Assembly: GCA_947631085.1 (NCBI GenBank)
Contig: CANRJY010000001.1
Location: 62,001-126,000, forward strand
DNA length: 64,000 nucleotides
From: an uncultured Clostridia bacterium
Lineage (GTDB): Bacteria; Bacillota; Clostridia; UBA1381
Reading direction: 5' to 3'
Part shown: positions 33,401 to 37,792 of the stretch, piece after piece
How positions within the stretch are numbered: position 1 is the first letter of the stretch
Layout of the letters: each line of letters starts with the position of its first letter
Made by a program: the position numbers and the translations under genes
The notes under the pieces: generated by a model
What the model saw: only the letters and a program-made list of their open reading frames with translations
The model's database searches: none
What the model was told of the DNA's origin: nothing

Positions 33401-34387
33401 TTATTTCCAATTTTCCTTCGCAAGAGCCGTCACTAAATCTATACATGCTTTTATATCATCTGCCGAAGCGGTTTCCGACGGCGAATGTATATATCTTGTC
33501 GGCAGAGATATTCCGCCGGTTTTTACGCCCGCACCGCTAAGATGAATCGCTCCGGCGTCCGTGCCGCCGTCTGTCATTATTTCAAGCTGATAAGGTATAC
33601 CGTTTTCGCGCGCCGTTTCCGTTATCATCGAGCGTACATATGAATCGCACAAAACCGATCTGTCCATTACCTTTACGGCAGCGCCGCCGCCCATTTTTAC
33701 GTCCATGACCGGAGCGTTCGGCGTGTCACCCGTATCGGTCACGTCAACAGCCACCGCGTAATCCGGCTCTATCGAAAACGCGGCTGTTTTCGCTCCGCGC
33801 AATCCCACTTCCTCCTGAGATGTAAAAACAAAATATAAATCGTTTTCACTTTCTCCTACGCGCTTAAGGGCTTCCATGAGTATATAACAGCCCGCTCGGT
33901 TGTCAAGCGCCTTGGATATGACTATGCCGTTTCCCTCGTGATATTCTCCCCTAAACACAGCCATATCTCCTATTGTGATTCTTTTCTCCGCGTCGGCTTT
34001 ATCCTTTGCGCCGATATCGATATATAGCTTATCGATCGTCGGCTTTTTATCGAACGCTTCCTCCTCGCTTCCGATAACTCCGACCGTTTCGTTCAAAAAT
34101 TCTACGCGGCGGTGAGCCAATTCCTTTATACACAATCCTCCAACGGCGCCGAAACGTATAAATCCGTTATCGTCGATCGCTCTTGCGATAACTCCGATTT
34201 CGTCCATATGCGCCGCAAACATGATTTTTCTTCCCGCGCCCTTTTTGTGAGCTACGAGATTGCCGAGCGAATCTGTTTTTACGTCATCGCAGTAATTTTT
34301 TATCTCTTTTTCTATAAAATCTCTCACAAATTCCTCGTGTCCTGACGGGGCGTTTATCCCTGTCAGCGTTTTCAGCAATTTCATCAT
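33401..34387 (-). CDS. M42 family metallo-aminopeptidase, third of three
   Basis: 328 residues. M42 enzymes are cobalt or zinc aminopeptidases that build 12-subunit tetrahedra degrading peptides in the cytosol. All active-site motifs are intact: AHMDEIGV (His and Asp), ALDNRAG (bridging Asp), SQEEVGLRGAK (catalytic Glu plus metal Glu), AVDVTDTGD (metal Asp) and RYIHSPSE (metal His). It overlaps the second M42 gene by 4 bases and ends the operon. Substrate preference (Glu/Asp, Leu or Lys type) cannot be told. Confidence 0.92.
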   Translation of the reverse strand: MMKLLKTLTGINAPSGHEEFVRDFIEKEIKNYCDDVKTDSLGNLVAHKKGAGRKIMFAAHMDEIGVIARAIDDNGFIRFGAVGGLCIKELAHRRVEFLNETVGVIGSEEEAFDKKPTIDKLYIDIGAKDKADAEKRITIGDMAVFRGEYHEGNGIVISKALDNRAGCYILMEALKRVGESENDLYFVFTSQEEVGLRGAKTAAFSIEPDYAVAVDVTDTGDTPNAPVMDVKMGGGAAVKVMDRSVLCDSYVRSMITETARENGIPYQLEIMTDGGTDAGAIHLSGAGVKTGGISLPTRYIHSPSETASADDIKACIDLVTALAKENWK

Positions 34388-35403
34388 ATAAAATCCCCCG
34401 CTTTCTTCAAAATAAGGACTGTCAAATCTTTCAGCGCTTCAATATCGCCGCGTTGCGCCGCACATACGGGAGTATGAGAATATCTGCAGGCAACGGCAGC
34501 CGTTACGGCGCGCGTTCCGGATCCCGACATAATAACTCCGCCTCCGCAGCTTGTACCGACAGACGACTCATTTATCTGCACCTTAATATCCTCAGCTTTT
34601 GCCGCAGCCGCGATTTTATCCGTCACGGCTCTGTCAAAAATCGCCCTGCTGTCCATAAGCGACAGAACAGCGCCGTTTCCGAGGACAGCGCCGCGTTCGG
34701 TTTTTTCGACTCCGTATGTATCAGCCGCGCAGACCGAGCCTAAAACAACGGCAAAATCCGGTTTTACCGCGTATGCCGCGATCTGCGCTCCGCGCATTCC
34801 TATCTCCTGCTGAACCGTAAAGCAGGCGTAAACATCATCCTCGTAATCATACTTAAGCGCCTCCATAAGAGCGTAACACGCTATACGGCTGTCGAGCGCC
34901 TTTCCCTTAACGCAATCGCCGAGATTTCCGCATTCCGTATCAAAAGCGGCATAGTCGCCCAAGTGAATTTTTTTCAGAGCGTCCTTTTTCGACTTTGCTC
35001 CGATATCGATAAAAAGCTCGGACGGAGCCACCGTAGTTTCGCGTTCTTTCTTTTTCTGCAGGTGTATCGCTTTCATTCCGATTACGCCTCTGACCTTATC
35101 CCCGCCTATGCGCACGCGTTTTGACACGAGCACCCGCTCGTCTATCGCGCCGACAAGCTTGAATTTCAGATATCCCTCGTCCGTCACGCCGGAAATAATA
35201 AGTCCGGGTTCATCCATGTGGCACACAACCATAATACGCCTTTTTCCAATCCTTCCCCGCTTCAGCGCGGTAACGCCGCCCATTGTATCTACGGAAATTT
35301 CATCGGCATATCGGCTGATATATTCAATTATGTAATCCCGTACACATTTCTCGTTTCCGCTTACGCCGTCAAGCTCGGACAGTATTTTTACAGTTTCAGC
35401 CAT
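34384..35403 (-). CDS. M42 family protein lacking key active-site residues (probable pseudo-peptidase)
   Basis: 339 residues with the complete M42 fold. His62/Asp64 (CHMDEPGL), bridging Asp171 (ALDSRIA) and the C-terminal His (RYSHTPV) are kept. However, the catalytic Glu is Gln199 (TVQQEIGMRG against TSQEEVGLRG in the neighbour), and the metal Asp is Gly222 (AVVLGSVCAAD against AVAVDVTDTGD). The general base and one metal ligand are therefore missing, so normal peptidase activity is unlikely. The frame is intact and overlaps both neighbours (16 bases upstream, 4 downstream), arguing for a maintained structural or regulatory subunit. Confidence 0.88.
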   Translation of the reverse strand: MAETVKILSELDGVSGNEKCVRDYIIEYISRYADEISVDTMGGVTALKRGRIGKRRIMVVCHMDEPGLIISGVTDEGYLKFKLVGAIDERVLVSKRVRIGGDKVRGVIGMKAIHLQKKKERETTVAPSELFIDIGAKSKKDALKKIHLGDYAAFDTECGNLGDCVKGKALDSRIACYALMEALKYDYEDDVYACFTVQQEIGMRGAQIAAYAVKPDFAVVLGSVCAADTYGVEKTERGAVLGNGAVLSLMDSRAIFDRAVTDKIAAAAKAEDIKVQINESSVGTSCGGGVIMSGSGTRAVTAAVACRYSHTPVCAAQRGDIEALKDLTVLILKKAGDFI

Positions 35404-36416
35404 GATATATCCTCCCGTAAGTCTTCAATGAAGCAGGTTATCAGCTTCGCTACAGCCTCCGCGTCCGACAAAGCCAAAGTTTCAACGGACGTATGCATAT
35501 ACTTGAGCGGTATCGACAACAGCGCCGTAGGCACTCCCGCGCGCGATACCTGCATCACCCACGCGTCAGTACCGGTGTTGCCTCCGTCTATTTCGGGCTC
35601 GGCTTTTATTTTATTTTTTTCAGCCGTTTCAAACAATCTTTTCGCCATTTTGGGATGAATATTCGGTCCCATCGATATGGTCAGCCCCTCGCCGACTTTA
35701 AAGGCGTTCTCGGAATTGTCGGGCGTTATTCCGTGCGTCACGTCAACGGCTATCGCCATATCCGGCTCTATCCCGTAAATTGCCGTTTTCGCGCCTCGGC
35801 AGCCGACCTCCTCCTGCACAGCCGCCACGGCGTATACATCGGCATGTAAATCCGCGCTTTTAAGCTTTTTCATAGCTGTGATCAACGCGGCAACGCTTGC
35901 CCTATCGTCAAGCGACTTTCCGCTGAACTGCCTCGAGCCGAGCTCTCCCACGGACTGCGCCAGCGTTATACTGTCGCCGACGGCGGCGAGCGATTTTGCC
36001 GTTTTTCCGTCATAGCCTATGTCTATCGCCATATCCCTGATTTTTGCGGTTTTGCCTGCTTCGAGCATAGACGCGGGTTTTATCCCTATCACTCCGTTTA
36101 AGTCGCGCCTGCCGTGAACTATGACCTCCGTTGACGGCAAAGTCCTTTCGTCAACTCCGCCCACCGGCGCGAACGTAAGAAAACCGTCGTCGGTTACCGA
36201 TGTCACGATAAGTCCTATTTCGTCCATATGCGCCTCTATCATAATTTTCGGCGAGTTTGGCTTACCGCATTTTTTCACGGCAATAACATTCCCGAGCGCG
36301 TCCGTGCGGACCTCGTCGGCATATTTTTCAAACAATTCCGCTATTTTATCGCTTATTCTGTATTCAAAGCCTGATATGCCCCGCATATCGCTGAGCTGCT
36401 TTATAAGTTTTTTCAT
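35388..36416 (-). CDS. M42 family metallo-aminopeptidase, first of three
   Basis: 342 residues. Catalytic set intact: EAHMDEIGL, KSLDDRAS, AVQEEVGCRGAK, AVDVTHGITPD and KYMHTSVET. Its GITPD and VGEGLTISMGPNIH wording differs from the third copy, so the three genes are old paralogues. The start lies 2 bases after murD and the end overlaps the pseudo-subunit gene by 16 bases, implying tight co-expression. Confidence 0.92.
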   Translation of the reverse strand: MKKLIKQLSDMRGISGFEYRISDKIAELFEKYADEVRTDALGNVIAVKKCGKPNSPKIMIEAHMDEIGLIVTSVTDDGFLTFAPVGGVDERTLPSTEVIVHGRRDLNGVIGIKPASMLEAGKTAKIRDMAIDIGYDGKTAKSLAAVGDSITLAQSVGELGSRQFSGKSLDDRASVAALITAMKKLKSADLHADVYAVAAVQEEVGCRGAKTAIYGIEPDMAIAVDVTHGITPDNSENAFKVGEGLTISMGPNIHPKMAKRLFETAEKNKIKAEPEIDGGNTGTDAWVMQVSRAGVPTALLSIPLKYMHTSVETLALSDAEAVAKLITCFIEDLREDISWLKL

Positions 36417-36418
36417 AG

Positions 36419-37792
36419 TTACTTCAATCCGTTCACAATTTCTTTAAATAAATTACCGCGTTCCTCAAAATTTTTAAACATATCAAAGCTTGTGCTTGCC
36501 GGCGACAATATTACAACGTCGCCCTCATGCGCGCGGCTTCTCGCGGTCTCCACCGCATCCTGATATGTCTTTGCCCGTATGATTTCCACATCCGCGCCTT
36601 TGCCTGTTTTTGCGGTTTCCTTTTTGAGCGCTTCCTCAATCTTATCCGACGTCATGCCGATAAGTATAAGCGTTTTCACATGTTCGGCGATTGACTGGCC
36701 TATCTCGTCGTAAGGTATCCCTTTATCCTTACCTCCGGCGATAAGTATAACTTTATCCGGAAATACCCTTAGCGTATTTATCGTCCTGTTCGGACTTGAA
36801 TCGATAGAGCTGTTGTAATAGCTTACTCCGCCGAGCTTTCTCACAAGTTCTATTCTGTGCTCGACGCCGCCAAATTCCTTTGCGGTTGAAACTATTATAT
36901 CATCATCCACAAGACCTTCCACAGCGGCTATAGCCGTCATGTAATTTTCCACATTATGCATGCCAGGGATTTTTATGTCATTTATATTAAGCACCGCCGT
37001 ATCGCCGCGCATGATCGTGTCTCCGCTAAGGTACACGTCCGCTTTAGTTTTGCGCGAAAAGCGTTTTATTACGCCCTTTGCGTCTCCTGTATTTTTCACG
37101 CTGTCAGCGTTGTCCGCATTTGTGACAAGTATGCCGTTTTCGTTCTGATAAAGAAAAATATTCTTTTTCGCGTCGATATACTCCTGATAATCGGTATGAT
37201 AATCGAGATGATTTGGGCTGAGATTGGTTATAACCGCTATTTCCGGCGATTTTCTCATGGTATGAAGCTGGAATGACGATAATTCCAAAATAACCCAGTC
37301 GTCCGGTTTCATCTTTTCCGCGTCGGTAAGAAGCGGATTTCCGATATTTCCGCCAAGCCACGTTTTATATCCCGCCTTTGTCATCATGCGGTGAATCAGA
37401 GTGGTTGTGGTGGTTTTCCCGTCGCTGCCCGTTACGGCTATTATGTGCGACGGACATAAATCAAAAAATACTTCCATCTCCGATGTGACTTCCGCTCCGC
37501 GCTCGCGCGCCTCATTTAATTCCGGAACGTCATAGCGCAGTCCCGGGGTTCTGAAAATCACGTCTCCCGTGAGATTTTTGAGATAGCTTTCTCCGAGACT
37601 GAATTTAACTCCCAGCTCCGCAAGCTCTCCGTATGTCTCACCCAATTTTTCTCTGTCGCGCTTATCGCACGCCGTCACGTTAGCGCCGAGCGACACGAGA
37701 TATTTTATAAGCGGCAGATTTGAAATGCCTATACCTATAACAGTGACCGCGCAGCCGTTCATTCTGCGCTTAAACTCCTCAATTTTATTCAT
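36419..37792 (-). CDS. murD: UDP-N-acetylmuramoyl-L-alanine--D-glutamate ligase
   Basis: 457 residues. Adds D-Glu to UDP-MurNAc-L-Ala using ATP. N-terminal Rossmann segment (VTVIGIGISNLPLIKYL), ATP loop AVTGSDGKTTTTTLI near residue 115, Mur-ligase NLSPNHLDYH, and C-terminal VILSPASTSFDMFKNFEERG. ACGGAGGATGG precedes the ATG. It is located within a protease/transporter operon rather than with mraY, ftsW and murG, showing a dispersed dcw cluster. Confidence 0.96.
   Translation of the reverse strand: MNKIEEFKRRMNGCAVTVIGIGISNLPLIKYLVSLGANVTACDKRDREKLGETYGELAELGVKFSLGESYLKNLTGDVIFRTPGLRYDVPELNEARERGAEVTSEMEVFFDLCPSHIIAVTGSDGKTTTTTLIHRMMTKAGYKTWLGGNIGNPLLTDAEKMKPDDWVILELSSFQLHTMRKSPEIAVITNLSPNHLDYHTDYQEYIDAKKNIFLYQNENGILVTNADNADSVKNTGDAKGVIKRFSRKTKADVYLSGDTIMRGDTAVLNINDIKIPGMHNVENYMTAIAAVEGLVDDDIIVSTAKEFGGVEHRIELVRKLGGVSYYNSSIDSSPNRTINTLRVFPDKVILIAGGKDKGIPYDEIGQSIAEHVKTLILIGMTSDKIEEALKKETAKTGKGADVEIIRAKTYQDAVETARSRAHEGDVVILSPASTSFDMFKNFEERGNLFKEIVNGLK

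Follow-up and report, generated by a model that had tools for sequence, protein, structure and literature searches.

A conserved M42 pseudoenzyme subunit in a three-gene peptidase operon of Clostridia, a probable loop donor to its active paralogue

The window analyzed here is a stretch of 64,000 nucleotides from an uncultured Clostridia bacterium (assembly GCA_947631085.1, contig CANRJY010000001.1, positions 62,001–126,000). On its minus strand, murD (36419–37792) is immediately followed by the M42 genes C (35388–36416), B (34384–35403), and A (33401–34387). The C–B overlap measures 16 nt and the B–A overlap 4 nt (ATGA), which confirms the trio of overlapping M42 genes proposed in the initial annotation. 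All three proteins pass the curated cut-off of Pfam PF05343 (23.2 bits), with scores of 306.7 for A, 276.7 for C, and 239.3 for B, and a profile search of the genome found no M42 genes other than these three. The spacing is equally tight across the order: the median C–B distance is −16 nt (50 nt or less in 86/86 pairs), and the median B–A distance is −4 nt (within 50 nt in 81/87 pairs). A murD homologue was observed at 80 of the 96 order-level loci and at 27 of the 60 class-level loci, some of the absences perhaps being due to contig ends; in the inspected loci it lies directly upstream of the trio on the same strand, forming a conserved murD–M42 operon.

Proteins A and C retain the catalytic Glu and all metal ligands (HDDEEDH), with QEEVG at the catalytic-Glu block and AVDVT at the metal-Asp block, in agreement with their earlier description as intact. 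In B, the former block reads FTVQQEIGMRGA, with Gln199 (codon cag, 34807–34809) at the position of the catalytic Glu, E212 of TET2; the latter reads AVVLGSVCAADT, with Gly222 (codon ggc, 34738–34740) at the metal-binding Asp/Glu position, D235 of TET2. The codons bear out both substitutions as initially annotated. The accompanying statement that all other residues of B are intact holds for His62, Asp64, Asp171, Glu200, and His310, but not for the third active-site motif, GTDA/GNDA, replaced by GTSC at residues 283–286. Set against catalytic M42 peptidases, B is therefore without the general-base Glu (E212) and, from the set H68, D182, E213, D/E235, and H323, without D235. The AF2 model of B nevertheless has a confident M42 fold (pLDDT 92.9), with a Foldseek TM-score of 0.93 to 9qr6 (dodecameric TETs). 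The defect is no sequencing accident, since it is shared by the nearest relative, whose B is 71% identical and carries QLEVG and LGS at the two blocks, and by 43 further genomes; with the same loss in 45 genomes, an artefact of sequencing or assembly is ruled out.

The trio was traced in an order-level sample of 95 genomes from four families and in a class-level sample of 60 further genomes. M42 matches were found in all but two of the 95 order genomes, and the order loci retrieved carry the C–B–A trio unless a contig end truncates them; genus g11 is arranged differently, with A placed upstream of C rather than following B. The C–B–A arrangement recurs among the 60 class-level genomes, the gene in the A slot being degenerate or unrecognised in 10 of them. 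In a tree of 444 sequences, A, B, and C form three clean clades (support 99, 100, and 100). Judged by these sequences, they are separate, ancient orthologous groups throughout the class, and the separation of the clades across the class implies that the duplication is older than the class itself.

In 106 genomes, B has a full active site, HDDEEEH, whose D235 position is filled by Glu; these comprise the whole class-level sample, the remaining three families of the order, and nine genera in the family to which the window belongs. Another 45 genomes, from eight genera, have lost the catalytic Glu (below, dead B), and its place is taken by Arg in 20, His in 11, Lys in 7, Ser in 3, and Gln, Leu, Tyr, or Cys in one each. 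All five metal ligands are kept in only 3/45 dead B proteins; the other 42 have lost ligands, which differ by genus. In the B tree, dead B forms one clade (43 full-length rows, SH-aLRT 99), and in the tree of A and C, constructed with B excluded, the 42 complete dead-B genomes again form one clade (SH-aLRT 99). As the clade is single in both trees, B died once and was inherited in that state through eight genera; several independent losses are ruled out. A DNA-pattern search of 398 genomes of the phylum, with a sensitivity of about 50% (22/45 in the order), found no second dead-B lineage with a kept loop. Separately, Glu200, a metal ligand that follows the catalytic Glu in the EE pair, is present in 42/45 dead B proteins, and may retain a structural metal-binding or fold role.

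Within the dead clade, a full-length B is present at every locus uncut by a contig end, with zero frameshifts or losses. The median within-genus dN/dS over 28 pairs is 0.196 for B, 0.115 for C, and 0.127 for A; the corresponding values in live lineages, from three pairs only, are 0.111, 0.062, and 0.102. Identity within genera is 0.59 for B versus 0.69 and 0.72 for A and C, so that B is the faster-evolving protein. Dead B is thus under clear, yet somewhat relaxed, purifying selection, and is a conserved pseudoenzyme subunit, not a decaying gene. The initial annotation had proposed a search for the trio in other genomes and a dN/dS estimate, and had considered that the dead copy might be confined to a single genome under relaxed selection; dead B is found in 45 genomes of 8 genera, at dN/dS of about 0.2.

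The part of dead B that has changed least is not its active site. Its most conserved 11-mer is GVIGMKAIHLQ (residues 106–116), with a mean entropy of 0.27 bits versus 0.59 in live B, while the substrate pocket is the least conserved region, and conservation drops most at active-site positions, 283, 284, 199, 222, 310, 62, and 171 among others. The 11-mer belongs to an invariant flexible loop (residues 106–121, GVIGMKAIHLQKKKER; 35041–35088, minus strand) containing His114 and equivalent to the Pro-Pro-His motif (H123) of TET2. Its codons vary synonymously in dead B (CAT in 31 and CAC in 14 genomes for His114; all four codons for Gly109), hence selection on the loop acts on the protein. Residues 111–120 are the least certain part of the AF2 model (pLDDT 61), and because of this low confidence the loop is probably mobile.

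The loop His is present in 151/151 B proteins. In C, it is found in 99/100 genomes with live B (the 101st C is truncated there), versus 6/45 with dead B. The C loop is shorter by at least three residues in 45/45 dead-B genomes versus 0/100 live-B genomes, in which it is full-length or almost so; in the window, residues 111–120 of C (36057–36086, minus strand) form a degenerated, shortened chamber loop, KPASML, in place of the ancestral AKPPHLQ, and the loop His is gone. Column by column, C has departed furthest from its ancestral state in the dead clade at the loop Pro and the loop His, which rank first and third in the order-only comparison. The active site of C is intact in all 147 C proteins, one of which lacks two site residues by truncation. 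The loop is never present in A, and no matching change of A is seen in the dead clade. The sole exception among the 100 live-B genomes is L113 (G080), where the loop His of C is lost (KSPAVL) beside an intact B. The loss of the C loop and that of the B site fall on the same single stem branch and are hence one coincidence, the 45 genomes being no independent replicates; a Fisher test on loop state was excluded as evidence, because its rows share one event. Independent weight comes from the long maintenance that followed, that is, an invariant loop in dead B and a varied, shortened loop in live C.

We assign a probability of about two in three to the reading that B is a pseudoenzyme subunit pairing with the active C and completing the site of C in trans with its loop. 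Under this proposal, each M42 subunit would extend a flexible, His-bearing loop into the active site of its neighbor, and B and C of the ancestral trio would both have been active and swapped loops. In the ancestor of the eight genera, B would have lost its catalytic Glu and, later, most of its pocket; it would have been retained as its loop still completed the site of C, by holding the substrate or polarizing water, while the loop of C, its client site in B being dead, would then have shortened and lost its His. If B and C formed homo-oligomers, C would be expected to keep its loop and B to lose it; the reverse is observed, as would be natural if B and C were adjacent and their loops reciprocal. 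We infer that they would form a B:C heteromer in a TET-like particle, with the loop acting in trans; the reciprocal loop signature, the overlapping genes, and the precedent of YtoP–YsdC bear on this heteromer indirectly. Counter-points are the six dead-clade C proteins whose shortened loop retains a His and the C of G080, without its loop His although B is live. The dead copy had been initially annotated as a structural or gating partner of both active paralogues in a bacterial hetero-TET. A conserved pseudoenzyme with evolutionary signs of a heteromer is retained from that description; the generic structural or gating role is less favored than that of a loop donor in trans, given the kept B loop and the lost C loop, and the signature links B with C but not with A, which has no loop and no matching change.

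Other readings of dead B have to be weighed against this one. Glu200, the three copies with all five ligands, and the His or Lys that replaces the catalytic Glu in some copies might be taken as signs of a working peptidase that uses other residues as the base and for metal binding, a substitution also contemplated in the initial annotation. However, the Glu position is held by R, H, K, S, Q, L, Y, or C, no consistent substitute catalytic residue is seen across dead B proteins, metal ligands are gone in 42/45 in a genus-specific pattern, and the GND motif is gone as well, which makes a working enzyme very improbable. It is just as hard to believe that B is a dying gene conserved through shared ancestry, with a coincidental change in the C loop: B does evolve faster than A and C, but there is no frameshift or loss in the complete loci of the 45 genomes, dN/dS is about 0.2, and the loop is better conserved in dead than in live B. 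Somewhat less remote, although still improbable, is an inert homo-oligomer serving a different function (peptide binding, chaperone, or regulation), independent of C and A. The intact fold and purifying selection are compatible with it; the strict operon position of B, with C and B close-set in all 86 pairs, the coincidence of the C loop loss with the death of B, and the poor conservation of the substrate pocket count against it.

That B serves a mixed TET particle as an inert component for structure or gating, its loop conserved for chamber packing, is an unlikely reading but one with more in its favor. The pocket of B decays while the fold stays, loop–loop contacts are also seen in TET2 (PMC8993905), and TET2 and TET3 of Pyrococcus horikoshii assemble mixed dodecamers in vitro (PMC4220976); the B loop might accordingly be conserved for assembly or gating instead of catalysis in C. 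This reading gives no account of why the active C lost its own loop His at the death of B, while the His of B is invariant. Finally, the loop-less A could borrow the loop of B, although no shift of A is seen in the dead clade. Where A has degenerated, the loop His is kept in both B and C, in line with a B–C pairing that does not involve the site of A.

The trio shares with M42/TET aminopeptidases (PhTET1–3, TmPep1050, MJ0555, YsdC) the fold, the chamber loop with its His, and, in A and C, the catalytic and metal-binding residues; A, without the long loop, is TmPep1050-like. It differs in that B has no catalytic Glu and, in 42/45 cases, has lost metal ligands, and in that the loop is kept asymmetrically between paralogues. 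In mitochondrial processing peptidase, the alpha subunit is non-catalytic, and its loop works on the substrate handled by the beta subunit, which is the catalytic one. The conserved flexible loop of that enzyme belongs to alpha (PMC3772902); the function of the inert subunit's loop is similar to that proposed here, whereas the fold family (M16) and the loop itself are unrelated, and the enzyme is a dimer in the form of a closed clam-shell rather than a TET particle. The chamber loop of Pyrococcus TET2 bears a conserved Pro-Pro-His, whose His improves substrate binding and may sit beside the active site of the adjacent subunit (PMC8993905); as between cis and trans action of this His, trans has only been suggested for TET2. 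The TET2–TET3 particle resembles our proposal in combining paralogous subunits, but both are active there, mixed in vitro, with no inert subunit. In Bacillus subtilis cells, crosslinking has shown the M42 paralogues YtoP and YsdC as a heteromer (PMC10090944; PDB 9a5r); this Gram-positive pair is likened to B and C by analogy, and is not reported to contain a pseudoenzyme. A literature search pairing M42 with pseudoenzyme found nothing relevant.

The genes TM1048–TM1049–TM1050 of Thermotoga maritima are treated in the literature as separate enzymes. TM1048 (presumably PDB 1vho) is probably C-like, as a phmmer score suggests; TM1049 (PDB 2fvg) is B-like, with Glu at the D235 position and an RPIHLQ loop, but is catalytically intact; and TM1050 (PDB 3isx/4p6y) is A-like, with a short loop. 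Descriptions and assays of M42 peptidases have mostly treated them as homo-oligomers. Should dead B complete the site of C, assays of C alone would mislead, and the many tandem M42 genes in these bacteria and in Thermotoga would merit study as heteromers. The natural experiment, in which the B site dies, the C loop decays, and the B loop stays, bears on whether a TET loop serves its own site or that of its neighbor, and reduces this question to a test by a few point mutants.

A broader reading, to which we give roughly even chances, is that of a class-wide machine of three M42 paralogues, whose subunits may give up catalysis and yet be retained: one lineage would have made B the dedicated loop donor of C, others would independently have made A a pseudoenzyme, and C is active everywhere. 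We know of no earlier M42/TET peptidase with obligate inert subunits; if this reading is true, the trio would be the first, and would provide evolutionary evidence for a trans-acting loop His.

The gene in the A slot downstream of B is degenerate at loci L192, L207, L211, L197, L200, L204, and L208, and also at L182 and L194, e.g., SSQGELGGRGAR, STQNTLGGRGAR, and FSAQRRFAAKG. At the degenerate-A loci of other families, B and C keep their active sites and loop His; in several of these families, the degenerate A probably represents a recurrent pseudoenzyme in the A slot. Locus L213 has no recognisable A. The trio proteins of L063 and L064 (genomes G063 and G055) are identical, though the genomes are assigned to different genera, and G055 has a second trio; for these two reasons the G055 bin is probably contaminated. 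In the window's own family, the reduced genome G056 (L084) has a live B next to an A that is degenerate (NDSKEDF).
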